61,137 bases of DNA. Origin: Salinadaptatus halalkaliphilus. Its GTDB lineage: Archaea > Halobacteriota > Halobacteria > Halobacteriales > Natrialbaceae. Location: contig NZ_RBZW01000070.1 in the NCBI RefSeq assembly GCF_006543045.1, forward strand, positions 2,415 through 63,551, written 5' to 3'. Within the stretch, counting starts at the first letter, position 1; the number at the start of each line of letters is the position of its first letter. The notes beneath the pieces were generated by a model that was given only the letters and a program-made list of their open reading frames with translations, was not told the DNA's origin and ran no database searches. This document shows, one piece after another, positions 35,280 to 47,006 of this stretch. A program made the translations under genes and the position numbers.

Positions 35280-35689
35280 ATAGCGCACTCTCTATGGGAG
35301 GAACATAAATCTATCTTCATCTATAGAGTCAGTGGTGATTGCACGCCACTTGGCGACGATTACTACTGTGTTTGTCCTATCCAAACAGAGAGATACGTTC
35401 GATACTATACCATATATATCACTATATATTTGAATGTACTGCAATCTACGCGCCAGGGGTCTGCTCCCCGTATTCGGGTTTGGTCCGTCGCGGATCTCGG
35501 ATCGTGTTCGTCTCCGTCCGCATTCTGTTCGTGTCGCGTGAGGGTGTACAGTGAGAGACATGGCTAATAGACGATGGTACTGCCCCCTCTTGTGGACTAT
35601 GTATCGATATAGAGAACTCTATTTGGATCAGCAGATAGATATATAGATATTAGCATTGCCTTTATACCGTCCGCGGCACAGTTGACGTG
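35280..35689. promoter_or_regulatory. divergent control region of AbrB-PhoU and pst operon
   Basis: TATA-like CTTTATACC at about 35660-35668, 22-30 bases before the pstS ATG. A motif ACTATGTATCGATATAGAG at 35597-35615 contains GTATCGATA, also present twice upstream of phnD. AT-rich palindromic DNA (CATATATATCACTATATATT) lies at about 35410-35430. No gene is supported. Confidence 0.6.
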
Positions 35690-36715
35690 ATGACGGACAA
35701 CACGTCCGGACAAACCGGTTTCGGCGGGGTATCGAGGCGGAACTTCCTGGCTGTCGGTGCCGTGGCAGGAGTTGCAGCGATTGCCGGTTGCAGCGCGAGC
35801 GGTGACGGTGAGCTTTCCGGGACGATCGATGCGTCCGGGTCGAACACCGTCGCACCGATCACGTCCTGGGCCGGGGAACAGTTCTCCAACGAGTACCCCG
35901 ATGTCCTCGTCGATGTCGCACCGGAGGGAACCGGTGCCGGCTTTCAGGAGTTCTGCCGGGCGAACTCCGACGTCCAGAGCGCGAGTCGACAGATTACGGA
36001 CGACGAAGTCGACCTCTGTGGCGAGAACGATGTCGAGTACGGCTTTATCGAGGTCGGTCTCGACGGACTCGCGGTCGTCAAGAACGCCGAGAACGACTGG
36101 GTCGAGGAGATCACGCTCGAGGAACTGCAGCAGGTCTGGGAATTCGAATCCGACGTCGAAACCTGGAGCGACATTCGAAGCGAGTGGCCCGACGAAGAGA
36201 TCGAACTCCACGCACGTGACAGCGCGTCGGGCACGTTCGACTACTTCACTCGCGAGATCAACGGCGAGATGGGCAACGTCCGCGACGACTACTCCGCGAC
36301 CAGCCAGACCAACGAGATCATGGGTGCCGTGGCCGACAACGAGCACGGCTTCGGCTGGGGTGGTCTGGGCTACCTTCGGGATATCGAAGACGATCAACCG
36401 ATCGAGGCCGTCCCCGTCGAGAGCGACCAGGACGGCGACTTCTATCTCCCCACGCAGGAGAACATCGAGGAGGGGAACTACTCGCCGCTCGCCCGCCCCC
36501 TGTTCGCGTTCGTCAACATCGCCAGCCTCGAGGACCGAACCGACCTCATCGGTTCCTTCGCTCGCTTCTACACCAACGGCCAACACGAGTTCGCCCGCGA
36601 TGAGGGCTTCTACGCCACGACTGACGCCGCACAGCAAGAGAACCACGACAAGATCGACGACTGGCTCGACCAGGTCGGCGCATCGCCCGACGATCTCACC
36701 GTTCAGCGAGCGTAA
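35690..36715 (+). CDS. pstS: phosphate ABC transporter substrate-binding lipoprotein
   Basis: 341 residues from ATG 35690 (GTG 35687 also in frame). A twin-arginine signal SRRNFL at 15-20 precedes a lipobox ending at C34 (AIAGC), so it is a lipid-anchored external phosphate-binding protein. The PstS pattern DASGSNTVAPI near residue 47, APEGTGAGF, and ARDSASGTFDYF give the phosphate-binding loops. First gene of pstSCAB-phoU-phoU2, under the promoter shared with the AbrB-PhoU gene. Confidence 0.94.
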   Translation: MTDNTSGQTGFGGVSRRNFLAVGAVAGVAAIAGCSASGDGELSGTIDASGSNTVAPITSWAGEQFSNEYPDVLVDVAPEGTGAGFQEFCRANSDVQSASRQITDDEVDLCGENDVEYGFIEVGLDGLAVVKNAENDWVEEITLEELQQVWEFESDVETWSDIRSEWPDEEIELHARDSASGTFDYFTREINGEMGNVRDDYSATSQTNEIMGAVADNEHGFGWGGLGYLRDIEDDQPIEAVPVESDQDGDFYLPTQENIEEGNYSPLARPLFAFVNIASLEDRTDLIGSFARFYTNGQHEFARDEGFYATTDAAQQENHDKIDDWLDQVGASPDDLTVQRA

Positions 36716-36730
36716 CCACGGAACCATACG

Positions 36731-37726
36731 ATGAGCACTGAAACGAACCCCGGACCGGGGATTACCGGTGGCGGCGGTGCCGAGGAAGACATGGCGGCCA
36801 ACAGACGTGCTCGCCGTCTCCTTTTCGGCTGTGCGGCAATTACCGTCGTCACGACGCTGGCGATCTTTTTCGTATTGCTCGATAACGCCGCGAGTTACTT
36901 CTTCGGTGCCCGATTTACCGAAATGTTGCTCGGCGCAAGCGCCGAACGGTCGGTCACGTTCACCGAGTTCTTCACCGGGGCCCGGTGGGCCCCCGACCAC
37001 GCGACGCCGGCCCACGGTGTACTCCCCATCGTTTTCGGAACGCTCGCGATCACGGTCGGTGCTGCGTTCGTCTCGATCCCGATCGGGACGGCGACGGCGA
37101 TCTATCTCTCGGAGTACGCTTCCGACGGCGTTCGCGCGAAACTCAAACCGACGCTCGAGATCCTTGCCGGCATTCCGACGATCGTCTACGGATATTTCGC
37201 GATCGCGTTCATCAATCCGGTCGTCCTCAGTCCGATCGCGGAGACGCTGTTCGGGATCAATATCGGTCGATACAGTATGCTCTCGGGGATGCTCGTCGTC
37301 GGCATCATGACTATCCCGATGGTCTCCTCGATCAGCGAGGACGCGATGTCGGCCGTTCCCGACGACCTACGTAACGGGGCCTATGCCCTCGGAGCGACGA
37401 AGTTCGATGTCTCGACGAAGATCGTACTGCCGGCATCGATCTCGGGCGTGTTCGCCTCGTACATCCTCGCGGTTTCGCGGGCGATCGGCGAGACCATGGC
37501 GGTCACGCTGGCGGCGGGGTTCAACGCGAACATCACGCCGAACCCGTTCGACGAGATCATGACGATGACGGCGTACATGGTCTCGATGGCCCGCGGGACG
37601 ACCGCGGTCGGCACCGTCGAGTACCAGAGCCTGTTCGCCGTCGGCCTGCTGTTGTTCGTGATGACGCTGGCGATGAATCTGTGCAACGATTGGTTCAAAC
37701 GCCGCTTCCAGGAGGAATACCGATGA
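36731..37726 (+). CDS. pstC: phosphate ABC transporter permease PstC
   Basis: 331 residues. Six hydrophobic segments with the PstC/PstA signature EILAGIPTIVYGYFAIAFI, and the ATPase-coupling region PDDLRNGAYALGATKFDVST. Sixteen bases from pstS; its stop overlaps the pstA start as ATGA. Confidence 0.94.
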   Translation: MSTETNPGPGITGGGGAEEDMAANRRARRLLFGCAAITVVTTLAIFFVLLDNAASYFFGARFTEMLLGASAERSVTFTEFFTGARWAPDHATPAHGVLPIVFGTLAITVGAAFVSIPIGTATAIYLSEYASDGVRAKLKPTLEILAGIPTIVYGYFAIAFINPVVLSPIAETLFGINIGRYSMLSGMLVVGIMTIPMVSSISEDAMSAVPDDLRNGAYALGATKFDVSTKIVLPASISGVFASYILAVSRAIGETMAVTLAAGFNANITPNPFDEIMTMTAYMVSMARGTTAVGTVEYQSLFAVGLLLFVMTLAMNLCNDWFKRRFQEEYR

Positions 37727-38622
37727 GTACGGAAACGGACGACACTCTGTTTACCGATGTCGACCTCGTGTGGGAACACCGCAAGAACCGGATCTTCCTC
37801 GCCATCATCTTCGCCGCGTCGCTGTTCGGCGTCGTTGCGCTCGCACTGCTATTGCTCGACGTCGCGAGCGACTTCTACGTCGGACTGACCGAATACAACA
37901 TCAGCCTCGTCGATTTCTTCACGCGTGATGGCTCCCGGCGGGAGGAACTCTCCGGCTTCCGAGGCGCTATCGTCGCGTCGATCATGCTGATGATCGTGAC
38001 GGCGATCCTCTCGTTTTTCGTCGGCGTCGGTTCGGCGATCTACCTGGAGGAGTACGCTCCGGACAACCACATTACGCGGCTGATCGAGGCGAATCTGGCG
38101 AACCTCGCTGGCGTCCCCTCGATCGTCTACGGGCTGCTTGCATTGGCCGCGTTCGTCAACGGGATCGGGATGGGACCGATCCTGCTGGCCGGTGCGATCG
38201 CACTCGGGTTGCTCGTCATGCCTATTATCATCGTCTCGTCCCAGGAGGCGCTTCGGGCGGTCCCCGACGGGGTCAGAAACGGGTCCTACGCGACTGGTGC
38301 TACGGAGTGGCAGACGATCCGCCGGGTCGTGCTACCGGCTGCGATGCCCGGCATCATGACCGGAACGATCCTGGGACTCGCCCGTGCGATCGGCGAAACG
38401 GCACCGCTTATCATGGTCGGGGCGCTGTTCGTCAACCGAATGCCGTACGGCCCGCTCGACCGGTTCAGCGCGATGCCAACCCAGATCTACAACTGGGCTG
38501 CCGAACCGAGTCAGCACTTCATCCATCTCGCCGCTGTCGGGATCGTCGTGTTACTCGCGTTCGTGTTCGCGATGAACGCGGCTGCGATCTACGTGCGGAA
38601 CAAGTACGAGACAGAGGTATAA
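37723..38622 (+). CDS. pstA: phosphate ABC transporter permease PstA
   Basis: 299 residues from ATG 37723, chosen because it overlaps the pstC stop by four bases (ATGA); an earlier GTG at 37681 is less likely. The membrane signature [19 protein letters not shown] and the coupling segment [20 protein letters not shown] match PstA. It pairs with PstC to form the phosphate channel. Confidence 0.94.
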
Positions 38623-38623
38623 C

Positions 38624-39478
38624 ATGGCTACAGATCACGAATCGGAACCGACGACGAACGACGCACAGCTCATTACGACCGACGTTCAGGCGACCGGAAC
38701 CGGACGCAATGGAGAGCCGACCGAACCCGTCGTGACGGCGCGCGATCTCGACGTCCACTACGGAGCGGAACAGGCACTCAACGACGTCGATATCGATATT
38801 CCGGAACACCGCGTGACGGCGATCATCGGTCCGTCCGGCTGTGGCAAGTCCACGTTCCTCCGCTGTGTCAATCGAATGAACGACCAGATAGATAGCTGTC
38901 GCATCGACGGCGAGCTGTCGTTCCACGGGAAGAACGTGTACGACGAGGACGTCGATCCCGTCGCGCTGCGACGGAAAATCGGGATGGTCTTCCAGAAACC
39001 CAACCCGTTCCCGAAGTCGATCTACGACAACGTCGCCTACGGCCTCCGCGTCCAGGGGATGGCGGGCGATGTCGACCTCGACGCCGCGGTCGAACGCGCC
39101 CTTCGCGGGGCGGCCCTCTGGGACGAAGTCAACGATCAACTCGACTCGAGCGGGCTCGACCTCTCCGGCGGGCAGCAACAGCGGCTCTGTATCGCACGGG
39201 CGATCGCACCCGATCCGGAGGTCATCCTGATGGACGAGCCGACGTCGGCGCTCGACCCCGTCGCGGCCTCGAAGATCGAAGATCTCATCGACGACCTGGC
39301 CGATGAGTACACCGTCATCATCGTCACGCACAACATGCAACAGGCGGCCCGTATTTCGGATAAGACCGCGGTCTTCCTGACCGGCGGCAACCTCGTCGAG
39401 TTCGACGAGACGCCGACGATCTTCGAGAACCCCGCCGACGACCGCGTCGAGGACTACATCACCGGCAAGTTCGGCTAA
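38624..39478 (+). CDS. pstB: phosphate ABC transporter ATPase PstB
   Basis: 284 residues. Walker [10 protein letters not shown] at 69-77, signature [14 protein letters not shown], Walker [13 protein letters not shown]. An N-terminal extension of about 35 acidic and Thr-rich residues precedes the domain, common in haloarchaea. It begins two bases after pstA. Confidence 0.95.
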
Positions 39479-39480
39479 CC

Positions 39481-40140
39481 ATGTCACGAACCGAATACCA
39501 ACACCAACTCGAGCGCCTACGCGAGGATGTCCTCGAGATGAGCGATGTCGTCTGTCAACGCCTGCGACGGGCGCTCGAGGCCTACGAGCGAACCGACGAG
39601 GACCTCGCACAGCGGGTGATCGACGGCGATCACGAGATTAACCAGCTGTATCTCGACCTCGAGAGCGACTGTATCGATCTCCTCGCGCTCCAACAGCCCG
39701 TCGCGGGCGATCTCAGGTTCATCGCCTCGACGTTCAAGATCATCACCGATCTCGAGCGCATCGGCGACCTCGCGGTGAACCTCGCCGAGTACACGAAACG
39801 CGCGCGGCGCGAGCGCTATCCCGACATCGACATCGCCCACATCGGCACCGAGACCGTGTTGCTGGTCGAAGACGCGATGGCAGCGTACGCGACGAACGAC
39901 GCCGACGCGACGGCCGATATCGCCGCGACGGACGACGAAATCGACTCGCTTTGTGAACGCGCGAGTCGAATCGTCGTTCTCGATCTCGTCGACACGCGAG
40001 GCGGTGACGACGCCCTTCTGGAGGATGTCTCGCGGATGTTGCTGACGATCCGCGATCTCGAGCGGGTCGGCGATCACGCGGTCAACATCGCCGCGAGAAC
40101 GCTGTACATGGTCGATAACGACGACGAACTGATCTACTGA
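39481..40140 (+). CDS. phoU: phosphate signalling protein PhoU
   Basis: 219 residues, all-helical, two PhoU repeats with the metal-binding pattern TDLERIGDLAVNLAEY (first) and DLERVGDHAVNIAART (second). It modulates Pst transport and signalling. Its stop codon overlaps the next gene start (TGATG). Confidence 0.93.
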   Translation: MSRTEYQHQLERLREDVLEMSDVVCQRLRRALEAYERTDEDLAQRVIDGDHEINQLYLDLESDCIDLLALQQPVAGDLRFIASTFKIITDLERIGDLAVNLAEYTKRARRERYPDIDIAHIGTETVLLVEDAMAAYATNDADATADIAATDDEIDSLCERASRIVVLDLVDTRGGDDALLEDVSRMLLTIRDLERVGDHAVNIAARTLYMVDNDDELIY

Positions 40141-41150
40141 TGAGCCAGAATCACCTGTCGCCTGGATCCCAGGAGCCGGTCGAACGGAAGGTACAGATCG
40201 CCGGCAACTCGACGTTCGTCGTCTCGCTTCCCAAGGAGTGGGCGACGGCTCAGGGCCTCGAGTCGGGGACGCCGATGTATCTGTACCCCCACGACGACCG
40301 ACTCGTCGCCGCCGCCAGTACGGTGTCGACTCGAGATCGAACGCGCCGGATCGACGTCGACGGATTGTCCACGGACGCGGTGCTTCGACGGGCCCGGACG
40401 GCCTACGTCGCCGGCTGTGATCGAATCACCGTCGCCGGCCTCGAGGCGGCCGAGCCGGAGCTTCGCCGACAGGTAGAGCGGGCCGTCGCCCGACTCATCG
40501 GGATCACGATTCAGGAAGATACCGCGGACAGGATCGTCATTCGAAACCTGCTCGACGCCAGCGAGGTGTCGCTGCCACAGACGGTCACGCAGGCCCGTCA
40601 GCTCGTCCTGGAGATGTACGCCGATGCCATCGAGTCGCTGTGTACCGACGATACGACACTCGCACGACGGGTTATCGACCGCGACGACGACGTCGACCGA
40701 CTGTTCGCGTTCGTGAGCCGCGGCTTTCACCGCGGGCTCGAGGACGTCCACGAGATCAATCGGCTCGGCACGGACCGCAGCGAGGCGTTTCGCCAGTATC
40801 GGATCGCACGCGACCTCGAGCGAATCGCGGATCACGCCGAAGGGATCGCGACGATCACGACTCGCCAATCGGGACCGCCGGACGACCCACTTGCGGAGCG
40901 ACTCGAGTCGGTCGGCGCTGACGCACGAACGGTCGTCCGACAGGCTCTCGAGGGTGAGATCGATCAGTCCCACGAGACGGCCTCGAGCGTTCGGGCGTCG
41001 ACGGCCGAACTCGATCAGCAGCTGTACGCCCAGAACGAGTCCGACGCGTACCTCTATGGGACTGCGATCCAGCGAGTCCGGCGAACAGCGGCAAACGGCA
41101 TCAACATCGCTACCGCGATGGCCGAAACGTCGATCGATGCTCGAGAGTAA
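40140..41150 (+). CDS. AbrB/SpoVT domain-PhoU domain phosphate regulator, second copy
   Basis: 336 residues. N-terminal AbrB-type fold (VERKVQIAGNSTFVVSLPKE, WA) then PhoU-like helices (ARDLERIADHAEGIATI; AANGINIATAMAE). Same architecture as the protein at 34284 but only moderately similar, so the pst operon is bracketed by two such regulators. It overlaps phoU by one base, so it should be made with the transporter. A 23 bp tandem repeat starts within its last codons. Confidence 0.9.
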   Translation: MSQNHLSPGSQEPVERKVQIAGNSTFVVSLPKEWATAQGLESGTPMYLYPHDDRLVAAASTVSTRDRTRRIDVDGLSTDAVLRRARTAYVAGCDRITVAGLEAAEPELRRQVERAVARLIGITIQEDTADRIVIRNLLDASEVSLPQTVTQARQLVLEMYADAIESLCTDDTTLARRVIDRDDDVDRLFAFVSRGFHRGLEDVHEINRLGTDRSEAFRQYRIARDLERIADHAEGIATITTRQSGPPDDPLAERLESVGADARTVVRQALEGEIDQSHETASSVRASTAELDQQLYAQNESDAYLYGTAIQRVRRTAANGINIATAMAETSIDARE

Positions 41151-41396: not shown

Positions 41397-42104
41397 CTAG
41401 AGCAATTCGGGCAGCATTTCCAGCGACTCGACCTCGAGGTATGTCTCGAGTTCCGGTTCGATGTCGTCGTTGTGCGCTCGTCGAACGAACACCGGCATCA
41501 GGCCGGCCCGTTCGGCGGCGATGAGATCGGTAACCCGGTCACCGACGTAGTAGCCCGCCGAGACCTCGAGCGCGTCGAGGGCCTCCTCGAGATAGTACGG
41601 ACTCGGTTTGCGCCGGAAGAAGCCGTCGACGCCGAGGTCCCGACCGCGGACGAACGAGAACTGCTCGAGTTCGAAGTGATCGACGACGAACGAGACCGCG
41701 GGATCGTAGTTGTTGCTCACGAGGCCAGTGTGACAGTGCTCCTGTATCTGGTCGAGGGCAGTCACGTCGGGGTACAATTCTCGTTTACCGGCGCGGATCC
41801 GGTCGATGATGTAGCTCGTCGAATACTCTTCGCGGCGGTGATACAGTTCGGTCGGATCGATGTCGATCGTCTCACAGGCCGCTTCGAAGGCCGAGGTATA
41901 CTCGTAGGTCTCGAGCGGTTGCCGTTCGCTGCGGTCGAGATCGAGTCCGAGGTCGTCGAGCACGTCCTCGAGGGCGTTAGTGTGGACGACTGGATCGGAC
42001 CCTCGTCCCTCGAGGATCACGCCGTCCATGTCGAAAAGCACGGCGGCGTCGCTTCGGTCGTCGGGCGTTGCGTTCAATCCGTCGTTTGCTAATGTCGTCG
42101 TCAT
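41397..42104 (-). CDS. HAD family hydrolase
   Basis: 235 residues. Motif I DMDGV at 25-29 gives the nucleophile aspartate; motif II is the serine of GLVSNN; motif III the lysine of RRKPSPYY; motif IV GDRVTDLIAAERAG. A helical cap lies between motifs I and II, as in phosphoglycolate and phosphonatase-type phosphatases. It is the last gene of the phosphonate-type importer operon, 26 bp after the small lipoprotein gene, so the substrate may be a phosphate ester brought in or produced there. The lysine that marks true phosphonoacetaldehyde hydrolases in the cap is not apparent. Confidence 0.88.
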   Translation of the reverse strand: MTTTLANDGLNATPDDRSDAAVLFDMDGVILEGRGSDPVVHTNALEDVLDDLGLDLDRSERQPLETYEYTSAFEAACETIDIDPTELYHRREEYSTSYIIDRIRAGKRELYPDVTALDQIQEHCHTGLVSNNYDPAVSFVVDHFELEQFSFVRGRDLGVDGFFRRKPSPYYLEEALDALEVSAGYYVGDRVTDLIAAERAGLMPVFVRRAHNDDIEPELETYLEVESLEMLPELL

Positions 42105-42130: not shown

Positions 42131-42355
42131 TTACTCTGGACAGCCACAGTCGTCGGCTGTCGAATCTGGATCTTCGTCAGTAGTCGAATCGCTGTCATCA
42201 TCAGCAGTCGAATCCGTCTCCGCGTCGGCATCGTCGTTCGACTCGTCCTGGTCCGTTGCATCGACGAGACAGCCCGCAAGCGCCGTCGACAGCCCCAGAC
42301 CAGCTCCTCCGAGGAGGCGTCGACGACTCGGCCGATCGATCGGTGTCTCAGCCAC
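42131..42355 (-). CDS. small twin-arginine lipoprotein, unknown function
   Basis: 74 residues from GTG 42355, five bases after the end of the permease gene. The start RPSRRRLLGGAGL then TALAGC is a clear twin-arginine signal with lipobox and lipidated C29. The mature part is only 45 residues, almost all Asp, Ser, Thr and Glu, and ends with CGCPE. The two cysteines at 70 and 72 plus acidic stretch suggest metal binding or a tether, but no family is recognised. It sits within the phn-type operon between a permease and the HAD gene, so it is probably an accessory of that importer. Easily missed because longer frames overlap it. Confidence 0.75.
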   Translation of the reverse strand: MAETPIDRPSRRRLLGGAGLGLSTALAGCLVDATDQDESNDDADAETDSTADDDSDSTTDEDPDSTADDCGCPE

Positions 42356-42360
42356 GTCGA

Positions 42361-43158
42361 TCACCGGACCATCGCTCGAGCGCGAGCGGAGACGGTTTCG
42401 CTCAGGAGGACGATACCCAGGATCGCGATGAGTATCAGCGCGACGGTCGACCACTGGAACGCGTCGACGGCGTCGAACAGTTGGACGCCGATACCGCCGG
42501 CGCCGACGACACCGAGAATGGTCGCCCCGCGGACGTTGATATCCCAGCGGTAGACGCTGATGCCGACCAGTGCGGGCTTGATCTGCGGGATGACCCCGTA
42601 GAGCAGCACCTGGAACGTGGAGGCGCCGGTCGCGTCGATTGCCTCGACCTGGTCGAACGCGATCTCCTCGATTTCCTCGCCGAGGAGTTTGCCGACGAAC
42701 CCGATGGATCGGACGCCGATCGCGACCATGCCGGCGAAGGCCCCGGGACCGAACATGACGACGAACAACATCGCCCAGATGATCGTGTGGACCGAGCGCG
42801 ACACCGTCACGATGAGTTTGCCGACCGCGTAGGTCACCCTGTTGGGGGTCGTATTTCTCGCTGCGAGAAAGGCCACCGGGATCGACAGTACGACGGCGAG
42901 AATCGTTCCCACGACGGCGATGTGGATCGTTTCGATCAGTGGCATCACGATATCGGGCGCGTAGGCCCACTCCGGCGGATACATCCGGACCGCCAGGTCG
43001 AGCAGTTCGGGCGGCGAACTCGCGACGTACTGCAGATCGAGGTCGAGCCAGAGCCACGAGCTGAGGACCGTCGCCGCCGCAAGTACCGCGATCGCCAGCC
43101 GCTTGATTCGGTCTCGAGTGTCGTACCGTTGCCAGTTGCGTCCGGGTTCGACAGCCAT
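42361..43158 (-). CDS. phnE: phosphonate-type ABC transporter permease (PhnE-like, second)
   Basis: 265 residues from ATG 43158, which overlaps the stop of the preceding permease (TGATG). Five or six hydrophobic segments. The PhnE coupling segment reads DATGASTFQVLLYGVIPQIK, followed by YRWDINVRGATILGVVGAGG, which is diagnostic for this family. It pairs with the other PhnE to form a heterodimeric channel. Confidence 0.9.
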   Translation of the reverse strand: MAVEPGRNWQRYDTRDRIKRLAIAVLAAATVLSSWLWLDLDLQYVASSPPELLDLAVRMYPPEWAYAPDIVMPLIETIHIAVVGTILAVVLSIPVAFLAARNTTPNRVTYAVGKLIVTVSRSVHTIIWAMLFVVMFGPGAFAGMVAIGVRSIGFVGKLLGEEIEEIAFDQVEAIDATGASTFQVLLYGVIPQIKPALVGISVYRWDINVRGATILGVVGAGGIGVQLFDAVDAFQWSTVALILIAILGIVLLSETVSARARAMVR

Positions 43159-43991
43159 CACTGAACCCTCCGTCGGACGTACGCGCTAAATAATTCGCCT
43201 GCAAGCACCACGACGATGATCGCGACGAGGATCGTCCCGGCGAAATCGTACTCGTAGCGATCGAACGACCGCATCAGTAGGGTTCCGATGCCGCCGGCTC
43301 CGACGATGCCGATGATCGTCGAGGAGCGGATATTGATGTCCCAGCGGTAGACAGTTAACCCGATAAACCGGGGTGCAACCTGTGGGATGACCGCGTACAC
43401 GAACGTCTGGAAGCGAGACGCGCCGCTGGCTTCGATCGCCGATTTGGCTCCCATGTCGATATCTTCGATGTCCTCGGCAAACAGCTTCGAGAAGAAGCCG
43501 ATCGTCAGGTAGCTGATCGCGATGATTCCCGCGAGCGGGCCGACGCCGACCGCCTTGACCGCGATGATCGCGATAATGAGTTCGTCGATCGATCGCGTGA
43601 TACTGATAATACCACGGTTGAGGTAGTACAGCGGTTTCGGGGCGAGGTTTTCGGCCGCACCAACCGCGACCGGCACCGAAATCAAGACGCCGGTAAACGT
43701 CGCGACGAACGCCATCGCGATCGTTTCGACCATGTAACGGCTGACACGTTCGAGGTTCGCACTCGAGGTGTCTGGCGGGACCATGCTCTCGACGAGCAAC
43801 ACGCCATTTTGGACGCCGATCAGCACTCTCGGTAGCGTGACGCCCGACAGGAGCGAGACGATCGACCAGAGCACGAACAGCGTCGCGCCGCCGTAGACGC
43901 CCCACTTGAGCCGCTGACTCCGAAAGGCGGTCGGCCGCTGCCAGTCGCCGTTTCCGGTGGTCACCTCGCTAGCGCCGTCCTGTGTCGCCAC
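43158..43991 (-). CDS. phnE: phosphonate-type ABC transporter permease (PhnE-like, first)
   Basis: 277 residues. The start is the GTG at 43991, one base past the phnC stop codon, giving an N-terminus MATQDGASEVTTG; longer frames upstream run through phnC and are rejected. Family motif EASGASRFQTFVYAVIPQVA and YRWDINIRSSTIIGIVGAGG. Its partner is the adjacent PhnE. Confidence 0.88.
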   Translation of the reverse strand: MATQDGASEVTTGNGDWQRPTAFRSQRLKWGVYGGATLFVLWSIVSLLSGVTLPRVLIGVQNGVLLVESMVPPDTSSANLERVSRYMVETIAMAFVATFTGVLISVPVAVGAAENLAPKPLYYLNRGIISITRSIDELIIAIIAVKAVGVGPLAGIIAISYLTIGFFSKLFAEDIEDIDMGAKSAIEASGASRFQTFVYAVIPQVAPRFIGLTVYRWDINIRSSTIIGIVGAGGIGTLLMRSFDRYEYDFAGTILVAIIVVVLAGELFSAYVRRRVQ

Positions 43992-43992
43992 A

Positions 43993-44829
43993 CTAATCAC
44001 CCGTGAGTGACGGTGTATCGACGACGCGTTCGGTGTCGTCGGTCCCACCGGATTGGGACGTCGTGTCTCGATCGGCCGTCGACGCTGCGATGGCTTCGCC
44101 CCGATAGATGACGTCTTTGGCGTTCTTGTCGAGGTCGTCCGTCGGGCCGTCGAAGACGAGCTCGCCGTCGTGGAGACCGAGAATTCGGTCGGCGTACTCG
44201 ACGGCCAGCGGGACCTCGTGAATGTTGATAATGATGGGGATATTCCGTTCCTCGGCGATGGCCGTGAGCAGTTCCATGACGGCGTGAGACGAGTCGGGAT
44301 CCAGACTCGAGGTGGGCTCGTCGGCCAGGAGTATCGTGGGCTCCTGGACGACGGCACGGGCGATGCCGACGCGCTGGCGCTGGCCGCCGGAGAGTTCGTC
44401 GGCGCGCTTGTTCTCCATGTCGGCGAGGCCGACCGTCTCGAGGATGTCGTAGGCCCGCTCGACGTCTTCGGGCGGGAAATTTCGCCGAAGTGCGGCCCAG
44501 TTCGAGACATAGCCGAGGCGACCGGAGAGGACGTTCTCCATGACGGTCAGGCGTTCGACCAGGTTGTACTCCTGGAAGACCATCCCGATGTTTCGCCTGG
44601 CCGCTTTCATCTCGTCGTCCGCGAGCGCGGTGAGATCCTCGCCGTCGAGTCGGACCTCGCCCTCCGTGGGTTCGGTTAGTCGGTTGATACACCGGATGAA
44701 CGTCGATTTTCCGGCTCCGCTGGGGCCGATCATCGCGACGATTTCGTTCCCTTCGACCGTCGTCGAAACGCCGCTTACTGCCTCGTCGCCTGTCGAATAC
44801 ACCTTGCGTAGGTCGATTGTTTCGAGCAT
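43993..44829 (-). CDS. phnC: phosphonate-type ABC transporter ATPase PhnC
   Basis: 278 residues. Walker [10 protein letters not shown] at 35-43, signature [14 protein letters not shown], Walker [16 protein letters not shown], as in PhnC. A Ser/Thr/Asp-rich tail of about 30 residues is extra. It follows phnD by 30 bp and precedes the first permease by one base. Confidence 0.93.
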
Positions 44830-44859: not shown

Positions 44860-46053
44860 TTACAGGTTCGCTTCGTCGTACTCGACGTCGTTGTACTGCT
44901 GGTTGATCATGACATCGTGCCAGTGGTTGACGTAGTCGACCTCGACGAACTGCGGGTAGGCGGCTTCGGCGTAGGTGGTTCCCTCCCAGTCCGTGTGCAG
45001 CCAGGTTTCGCGTGCGCCCTCGATAATCTCTTCGTGGAGGTTGTACCGATAGCCGATCGGGCCAGGCGGGAACGGATCGGCCGCCCAGACGACCTTGAAG
45101 TCGTCGAAGTCGATGTCGTCGACCGCTTCGACCGTCTGCTCCCAGCAGGTGCTGCAGATCGGCCCGCAGTCGTAGTCGCCGTAGGCGATTCCGCGAGCGG
45201 ACTGTTCGTGTCCGCCGGACATCTCGGGATTGTAGTTCTCGCCGTTGGTCAAGCCAAAGTGTTCGTCGAACAGCGCCGACGGTGCCTGGTTCCCCGAATT
45301 CGACGACGCTTCCGTGTGTGCGACCCGGTGGTCGTTGAAGTCTGCGACGCTTTGAATCTCGTCCATGTCGGCCCGGGTAATCGCCAGCAACCGGTAGCCG
45401 AACTGGCCGTCGCCTGCGACGCCGGTCGCCAGCGGGACCATCCCGGCCATGTTCACGCCGAACGGCGTGTTCCCCGTCGCGAAGTTCGCGAGGTGGATCC
45501 GTTCGGACCGCATCCCCTCGACGACCGCCGCGTAGCTGTCGATCGTCTGAAACTCGACGTCGCGACCGGTTTCGGCCTCGAGTTTCTCGATCATCGGCTC
45601 GATCTGGTCGCCGTAGGCCTGCTGGGTGTCTTCGCGAGGGAGGTCGGCGTAGACGATCGGGTCCGGATCGATCCATTCCGAGGAATCAGCAGGGTGAGCT
45701 GCCGGTTCCTGTCCGTAGACGGCCGACTCACGGCCACGATTTCCCATCGCTTCGAGGTCGTGTTCGGAGCCACGGATGAAGTCGTGCTCGGCCATCTTCC
45801 CCCCGAGGTAGTTGTTGTTCTCCCAGTCGGGATTCTGTGGGTCGAAGTCGTCCGAGAGCATCGGGTCACCGATCCCGCCGTTACCGTTGCCATTGCCGTT
45901 ACCGTCGTCACCGCCGAGTCCGGCACCTGCCTCGCCACCGTTACCGTCTCCCTCGAGACAGCCGGCTAGTGCGGCCGTCCCGACTGCTCCCCCAGCAACG
46001 ATGAAGTTTCGTCGCGTCCGATCGATACTCGAATTGGAGTGGTTGTCCACCAT
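44860..46053 (-). CDS. phnD: phosphonate-type ABC transporter binding lipoprotein PhnD
   Basis: 397 residues. Twin-arginine signal (RTRRNFIVAGG) and lipobox with C32, followed by a Gly/Asn/Asp linker with a GN repeat to about residue 62. The PhnD-like fold has YGDQIEPMIEKLEAETGRDV, ANFATGNTPFG and AHTEASSNSGN. The last two are typical of the ligand loops for phosphonate, phosphite or phosphate. It heads an operon phnD-C-E-E-lipoprotein-HAD. No C-P lyase genes are in the window, so the ligand may be a phosphonate, phosphite or a phosphate ester. An AT box at 46087-46093 lies about 35 bases upstream. Confidence 0.9.
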   Translation of the reverse strand: MVDNHSNSSIDRTRRNFIVAGGAVGTAALAGCLEGDGNGGEAGAGLGGDDGNGNGNGNGGIGDPMLSDDFDPQNPDWENNNYLGGKMAEHDFIRGSEHDLEAMGNRGRESAVYGQEPAAHPADSSEWIDPDPIVYADLPREDTQQAYGDQIEPMIEKLEAETGRDVEFQTIDSYAAVVEGMRSERIHLANFATGNTPFGVNMAGMVPLATGVAGDGQFGYRLLAITRADMDEIQSVADFNDHRVAHTEASSNSGNQAPSALFDEHFGLTNGENYNPEMSGGHEQSARGIAYGDYDCGPICSTCWEQTVEAVDDIDFDDFKVVWAADPFPPGPIGYRYNLHEEIIEGARETWLHTDWEGTTYAEAAYPQFVEVDYVNHWHDVMINQQYNDVEYDEANL

Positions 46054-46307: not shown

Positions 46308-47006
46308 ATGATTCGCAGGCGATTGCTCACCAAGGGGCCGGCAGACCCGCCGGGGTTCGACCGGGCGGCGTGTCCATCGTCGCCGACCGACCTCTACATC
46401 AGCTACGACGGATCACGATTCCACTGTCAGGCGGTTTCGTCGGCCAATGGGTCGTGGGAGCTGTTGTTCGGCCGGCGAGCGGACGGCGATCGTTCACGCT
46501 GGTTTCGCTTTCGGCAGGACGAACTCGTCGATACGCGACACGTCTCACGGCCGGTCGACGGTGCGATCGCCGACGACGGGACTGCAATCGTGGTCTCGGC
46601 CGGCGACCCTGCGACGCTCGGTGGCGAACTGACCGTTCTCGGCGACGACGGGATCGTCCTCTCTCGGCAGTTCGACCGGAGCCTCGGCCGTCCCGTCGTT
46701 CGGCCGGACGGCGACGTCTGTGCCATCTCCACTCGGCCGCCGGAGCCGACGGTGTACGGATGCTGTCTGCGGACGGAAACGTGGATCCTCGAGCGAACGT
46801 TTCGGGAACGGACGATTCGGCTGCTTGGCTTTCACGCCGACGGCGACGAGTCGTATTGTTACGTCGGCGTTCGTTCGGCTGGGGATCCGTATCTGGCACT
46901 GGACGAAGAGGGCGAGGTCGCCTGGGAGAGCGACCGACACTGGGCGACGCGGTCGCTTGCCGACCGTGTCGGCTCGTTCGTCGACTCGATTCGATTGGGT
47001 GCCTAA
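46308..47006 (+). CDS. haloarchaeal protein of unknown function
   Basis: 232 residues, cytosolic, no signal or membrane helix. The sequence has regularly spaced short hydrophobic strands with turns such as VVRPDGDVCAIS, LTVLGDDGIVLS and LALDEEGEVAWES, the look of a small beta-propeller or repeat-sheet protein. No catalytic motif is visible. It converges with the transglutaminase-like gene, 36 bp apart, and is probably transcribed alone. Confidence 0.7.
   Translation: MIRRRLLTKGPADPPGFDRAACPSSPTDLYISYDGSRFHCQAVSSANGSWELLFGRRADGDRSRWFRFRQDELVDTRHVSRPVDGAIADDGTAIVVSAGDPATLGGELTVLGDDGIVLSRQFDRSLGRPVVRPDGDVCAISTRPPEPTVYGCCLRTETWILERTFRERTIRLLGFHADGDESYCYVGVRSAGDPYLALDEEGEVAWESDRHWATRSLADRVGSFVDSIRLGA

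Follow-up and report, generated by a model that had tools for sequence, protein, structure and literature searches.

Gene order at the phn locus

The window, that is, the whole stretch of 61,137 nucleotides of Salinadaptatus halalkaliphilus DNA analysed here, carries a phn operon on its minus strand, with the gene order phnD, phnC, phnE1, phnE2, small gene, HAD. We call the position between phnE2 and the HAD gene the slot.

44860..46053, minus strand: phnD, Tat-lipobox substrate-binding protein (Pfam PF12974, E 4.8e-47; TIGR01098 above cut-off)
43993..44829, minus strand: phnC, ABC ATPase (NCBIfam TIGR02315, E 6.9e-93)
43158..44009, minus strand: phnE1, ABC permease, start approximate (NCBIfam TIGR01097 PhnE, E 1.4e-79)
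42361..43161, minus strand: phnE2, ABC permease (NCBIfam TIGR01097 PhnE, E 4.5e-85)
42131..42355, minus strand: coding sequence of the CGCP-tailed lipoprotein, 74 aa (translation; same-slot orthologues)
41397..42104, minus strand: HAD-family hydrolase downstream of the slot (Pfam PF00702, E 4.2e-14)

The placement of the small gene between the second PhnE and a HAD hydrolase, given in an earlier note on this DNA, holds, and the HAD gene follows the slot in the same order at most related loci. A search for the HAD gene in plasmids returned only relatives below 60% identity. Divergent from phnD lies an ORF of 232 residues (46308-47006, plus strand) with no Pfam or NCBIfam match; its relatives (31-55% identity) also sit beside phnD at L059, L060, L061, L065, L068, L069, L070, L071, L100 and L155.

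From 35687 to 41150, a pstS-C-A-B-phoU cluster, whose genes were named from a reading of their ORFs, converges on the phn operon. Furthermore, PstB or PhoU relatives are found near the locus in L061, L065, L069, L070 and L071. These neighbours, in the window and in its relatives, make a phosphorus context likely. The more specific label 'phosphonate-type', used in the earlier note, is not established, because PhnJ (PF06007) is missing from the window genome and because PhnD reaches only 93.6 bits against the TIGR03431 PhnD equivalog, whose cut-off is 261.1. PhnJ is also missing from 10 of the 11 other genomes checked; G041 is the only positive one of the 12. In that genome, an apparent C-P lyase cluster (L154 1-4540; PhnJ confirmed by PF06007, PhnK, PhnL and PhnM by reading) adjoins a phnCDE operon whose PhnD is without the CSTC motif discussed below.

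Architecture of the small protein

The minus-strand translation of 42355-42131 reads V(M)AETPIDRPSRRRLLGGAGLGLSTALAGC(29)LVDATDQDESNDDADAETDSTADDDSDSTTDEDPDSTADDCGCPE* and comprises the following parts.

42272..42355, minus strand: Tat signal peptide, residues 1-28, SRRRLL...STALAG (sequence; haloarchaeal Tat-lipoprotein rules, PMC2945643)
42269..42280, minus strand: lipobox LAGC, residues 26-29, with Cys29 as the predicted lipid-bearing residue (sequence)
42152..42268, minus strand: acidic low-complexity linker, residues 30-68 (composition; alignment; AlphaFold2)
42134..42151, minus strand: conserved C-terminal tail D-C-G-C-P-E, residues 69-74 (invariant Cys pair; pattern search)

The twin-arginine signal, the lipobox at C29, the acidic spacer and the terminal CGCPE which had been described for this protein are thus all present. 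The arginine pair is followed by a hydrophobic stretch (SRRRLLGGAGLGLSTALAG). In haloarchaeal Tat lipoproteins, the distance from the arginine pair to the cysteine is 12-21 residues, and the lipobox cysteine, 12-21 residues past the second arginine, is followed by leucine or serine (PMC2945643). The window protein fits these rules, with 15-16 residues between the arginine pair and Cys29 and a leucine after LAGC. From these motif rules we infer that the predicted lipoprotein would be exported by the Tat pathway and lipidated at C29.

Only 46 residues remain from Cys29 on, which bears out the view that a binding domain would not fit into the mature protein. This part counts 20 Asp/Glu but is devoid of Lys, Arg and His. 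The linker carries DSTADD-like repeats and varies in length among orthologues, as seen in an alignment of eight short forms. In the window, the segment 42131-42268 is built of GATTCGACTGCTGATGA-type (DSTADD) repeats, which suggests length change through slippage. An AlphaFold2 prediction of the small protein, made from eight sequences only, gave a mean pLDDT of 54 and zero secondary structure, consistent with a disordered spacer. C-terminal prenylation (CaaX or terminal CXC) was considered for the tail and rejected, since the two cysteines sit at positions -5 and -3.

Neither Pfam nor NCBIfam yielded a meaningful match for the small protein, and no curated family of theirs covers it. Weak profile matches (for example RnaseEMycob, formate_TAT and, on a relative, a RiPP model; E 0.01-0.1) were judged to be chance. 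A whole-protein search of its own genome gave 53 matches, all of which, except the gene itself, reflect generic lipoprotein-like similarity.

Start codon and coding evidence

The gene starts with a GTG codon at 42355, which aligns with the methionine of the orthologues (MA-ETPIDRPSRRR versus MASIDRLTSRRS). An alternative GTG at 42364 overlaps the phnE2 stop and would give 77 aa. The start lies 5 bp past the phnE2 stop, and the ORF ends 26 bp ahead of the HAD ORF. No stop interrupts the reading frame for 380 codons upstream, across phnE2, so that an open frame is weak coding evidence here. Codon-position GC is unhelpful as well: the profile is unlike that of the neighbours, with an atypical third-position GC of 0.57 versus 0.78-0.84.

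Evidence for a gene comes instead from recurrence. Tail-bearing ORFs occupy the same slot at seven other loci, the tail cysteine codons vary between TGT and TGC only, and the tail is rare; together these support an ORF beyond chance. Judged by sequence, the small ORF is a genuine gene. The ORF at 42131-42355 proposed earlier, for which no strand had been given, lies on the minus strand and is confirmed both by its translation and by its recurrence in the slot elsewhere. A spurious open frame, or a mere untranslated spacer between phnE2 and HAD, would account for a frame that is open by composition far upstream and for the atypical codon-position GC. This explanation is highly improbable nonetheless, as an export-type signal and a rare tail recur in the same slot of distant genomes.

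The rarity of the tail was assessed with the pattern [EDG]C[GDE]CP[EDG]-stop in 392 haloarchaeal genomes. It returned 11 sites, five of which belong to the CGCP-tail family; the remaining six look like background, as they close very short frames or belong to an unrelated, PhoU-like end. A reversed-pattern control gave about nine sites, a similar background. Single tail-pattern sites are therefore meaningless, and their meaning comes from the slot. We define the CGCP-tail family by a C-terminal C-x-C-P-x tail on a protein of exported type whose gene lies between phnE2 and HAD; the window protein belongs to it.

Distribution of the short form

PhnE2 was searched in 125 family genomes, 392 order genomes and additional named genomes. 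The window genome (G000) measures 4.5 Mb, and Natrialba, Halobiforma and Natronorubrum are among its relatives in the family. A lack of conservation across phn-type operons elsewhere, named in the earlier note as a refuting outcome, did not show up: the slot holds a tail-bearing ORF in 7 of the 10 Natrialbaceae genomes whose PhnE2 is at least 75% identical (G000, G034, G035, G080, G083, G046 and G044), and a MAG locus, L060, is the eighth. The eight short-form loci are the window, L060, L061 (Halobiforma nitratireducens), L064, L065 (Natrialba chahannaoensis), L069, L070 and L071. In all of them the start stays near the phnE2 stop. In the Natrialba chahannaoensis contig (L065/L018), the end of phnE2 shows a sequencing-adapter-like stretch with an N, probably an assembly artefact.

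Seven columns are invariant among the eight short forms: Met1, Arg12, Asp54, Thr59, Thr66, Cys70 and Cys72. The cysteine tail is the conserved part, as a metal or thiol role would predict; in L070 the tail reads CGCHG. L060 keeps the arginine pair and the lipobox cysteine (SGC), and the six short forms other than the window and L060 keep the hydrophobic segment but have tyrosine or tryptophan in place of the lipobox cysteine; one short form has KR instead of RR. Tat-lipoprotein features are found in the window protein; lipid anchoring of the short forms in general is not supported, the lipobox cysteine being gone in six of the eight.

The small gene is absent in Natronorubrum thiooxidans (L059, PhnE2 86%) and in L062. 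For the former we speak of absence and not of decay, because a nucleotide comparison found no decayed remnant. In L068 the gene is disrupted; a tail-like piece alone remains, out of frame and with tyrosine in place of the first cysteine. Pairwise dN/dS among the short forms is mostly 0.4-0.9, which indicates weak selection on the whole protein. At the DNA level, the window ORF has no significant similarity to the Natrialba/Halobiforma group, and their orthology therefore rests on slot, signal and tail.

Halocyanin-type proteins with the same tail

A link missed by the earlier note is that to halocyanin-type lipoproteins ending in the same tail. In Natronocalculus amylovorans (L063), the slot is filled by a 203-residue cupredoxin lipoprotein which ends in PDCGCPE. 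Its cupredoxin domain matches Pfam Copper-bind (PF00127, E 8e-14), and by reading it has the Cys, His and Met of the C-x-x-H...M copper motif. The slot of L100 (genome G380) is filled by a 184-residue relative ending in GDCGCPK, in which most copper ligands are lost. A 234-residue relative in L154 (G041) ends in DDCGCPG; it is found next to a HAD remnant, some 7 kb away from the phnE2 whose operon adjoins the C-P lyase genes. Both tail cysteines are invariant across the eight short forms and these three halocyanin-type proteins.

Among 30 cupredoxins fetched with L063, only L063, L100 and L154 carry the tail. These three group together in a tree even with the tail removed (support 89/89), the G380 protein sitting on a long branch. 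A second tail pattern, run over the family of G380 (170 genomes), matched in G380 and G250 only. When PhnE2, HAD and PhnD are used to build a tree, L063 comes out as the sister of the Natrialbaceae clade having the short form, and L100 in the neighbouring clade. The tail goes with the phn locus and not with the cupredoxin fold. On sequence comparison, this distribution fits a single ancestral cupredoxin-tail gene followed by losses; transfer of such a gene is also conceivable. Titles and abstracts on halocyanin and phosphonate, and on CXC and cupredoxin, held nothing about this locus.

Because the relatives' cupredoxins end in the same two-cysteine tail, the small protein looks like a pared-down copper-protein gene. 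It is most likely a halocyanin-type lipoprotein which has been reduced to an anchor, a disordered acidic spacer and a CXC tail. A serious rival is that it is a decaying relic, a cupredoxin gene without its domain whose remaining ORF drifts towards loss and is functionless in most lineages. The dN/dS values, the lost lipobox cysteines, the absent or disrupted genes (L059, L062, L068), the lost copper ligands of L100, the low third-position GC and the CGCHG tail of L070 would all agree with decay. Such drift is somewhat unlikely, given that both tail cysteines persist in 8 of 8 short forms despite widely varying synonymous positions and linker, that the frame is intact at eight loci and that the start is still near the phnE2 stop.

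Cysteines of PhnD

The window PhnD carries the motif DCGPICSTC, with cysteines at positions 296, 300 and 303. C300 and C303 show a conservation of at least 90% across 40 haloarchaeal sequences. In a model of PhnD (mean pLDDT 83), C300-S-T-C303 is located at a strand-helix junction. This near-invariant haloarchaeal motif is not aligned with cysteines in PtxB.

CXC peptides are mimics of protein disulfide isomerase. The tail might accordingly act as a thiol-disulfide helper, exchanging disulfides with the CSTC of PhnD or linking both proteins through a mixed disulfide. The conservation of C300 and C303, modelled where a strand end runs into a helix, speaks for this idea, as does the predicted location of PhnD and the small protein on the same membrane face and in one operon. 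We consider it a real rival but a rather unlikely one. CSTC occurs in nearly all haloarchaeal PhnD whether or not the tail gene is present, and the extra C296 is not distributed like the tail: L063 ends in the tail but lacks C296, and L072, L095, L102 and L103 have C296 without the tail. With no strict co-variation between PhnD cysteines and the tail, docking to PhnD, as put forward earlier, is not supported; the suggested metal-binding or docking role is conceivable.

Proposed role of the tail

Our favoured reading, held tentatively, is that the small protein serves as a disordered tether with a lipid anchor, and that its CXC site would receive a soft metal ion beside the importer. The ancestor would have been a halocyanin-type lipoprotein in the phnE2-HAD slot, whose folded domain was lost, if we have the direction of evolution right. 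The Tat pathway would export the precursor, and cleavage ahead of C29 would leave this residue to take the lipid anchor. The spacer would hold the terminal C-G-C-P a few nanometres off the outer membrane face, where the two tail thiolates may bind a soft metal ion, Cu(I) or Zn(II), near the importer. The tail probably displays a putative metal or thiol site beside the importer. In this role the small lipoprotein would be an accessory of the PhnCDE-type importer beside pst/phoU genes, with a conceivable effect on transport.

Several observations count against the metal tether. Two cysteines alone are an incomplete metal site unless chains pair. Moreover, six of the eight short forms are without the lipobox cysteine, KR replaces RR in one, and dN/dS of about 0.4-0.9 suggests weak whole-protein selection. 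Natronorubrum thiooxidans and L062 do not have the gene, and L068 has it in disrupted form. The third-position GC unlike that of the neighbours and the non-significant DNA similarity to the Natrialba/Halobiforma group also weigh against it. It is unlikely, in our view, that the CXC tail is an undescribed extracytoplasmic metal/thiol module of haloarchaeal PhnCDE-type importers, first a blue-copper-lipoprotein tail and still working after loss of the copper domain.

Should the favoured reading be true, a copper-protein lineage would be tied to phosphorus import in haloarchaea, and its domain would have been lost while a five-residue tail was kept. Slot and tail make the small gene recognisable across genomes where composition is uninformative, and the cysteine pair is directly testable in genetically workable haloarchaea.

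Comparison with known systems

Very small proteins with closely spaced cysteines are known from haloarchaea as zinc-finger micro-proteins, which have two CPxCG motifs. The window protein is alike in its tiny size and its closely spaced cysteines, but it has a single CGCP at the extreme end instead of two CPxCG and is predicted to be exported.

Like PhnCDE importers of phosphonate, phosphite or phosphate, the window has phnD, phnC and two phnE genes. The PhnCDE of Escherichia coli is reported to transport phosphate too (PMC6469041). The window differs by the additional small lipoprotein and HAD genes, in a genome without PhnJ.

With the haloarchaeal Tat lipoproteins (PMC2945643), the window protein shares the twin arginine, the hydrophobic stretch, LAGC-Leu and the distance of 15-16 residues, whereas its mature part has just 46 residues and no predicted folded domain. 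Halocyanin-type lipoproteins (plastocyanin/azurin, PF00127) have a Tat signal and lipobox as in the window protein, and L063, L100 and L154 share the DCGCP-x tail and, in two cases, the operon slot; the other sampled halocyanin relatives are without the tail. In contrast to them, the window protein lacks a cupredoxin domain (PF00127 or TIGR03102; Pfam gave no match) and the type 1 copper ligands (His, Cys, His, Met), its mature part having neither His nor Met. We regard it as a variant of known haloarchaeal lipoproteins that stands out by the slot and the tail which it has in common with halocyanin-type proteins.
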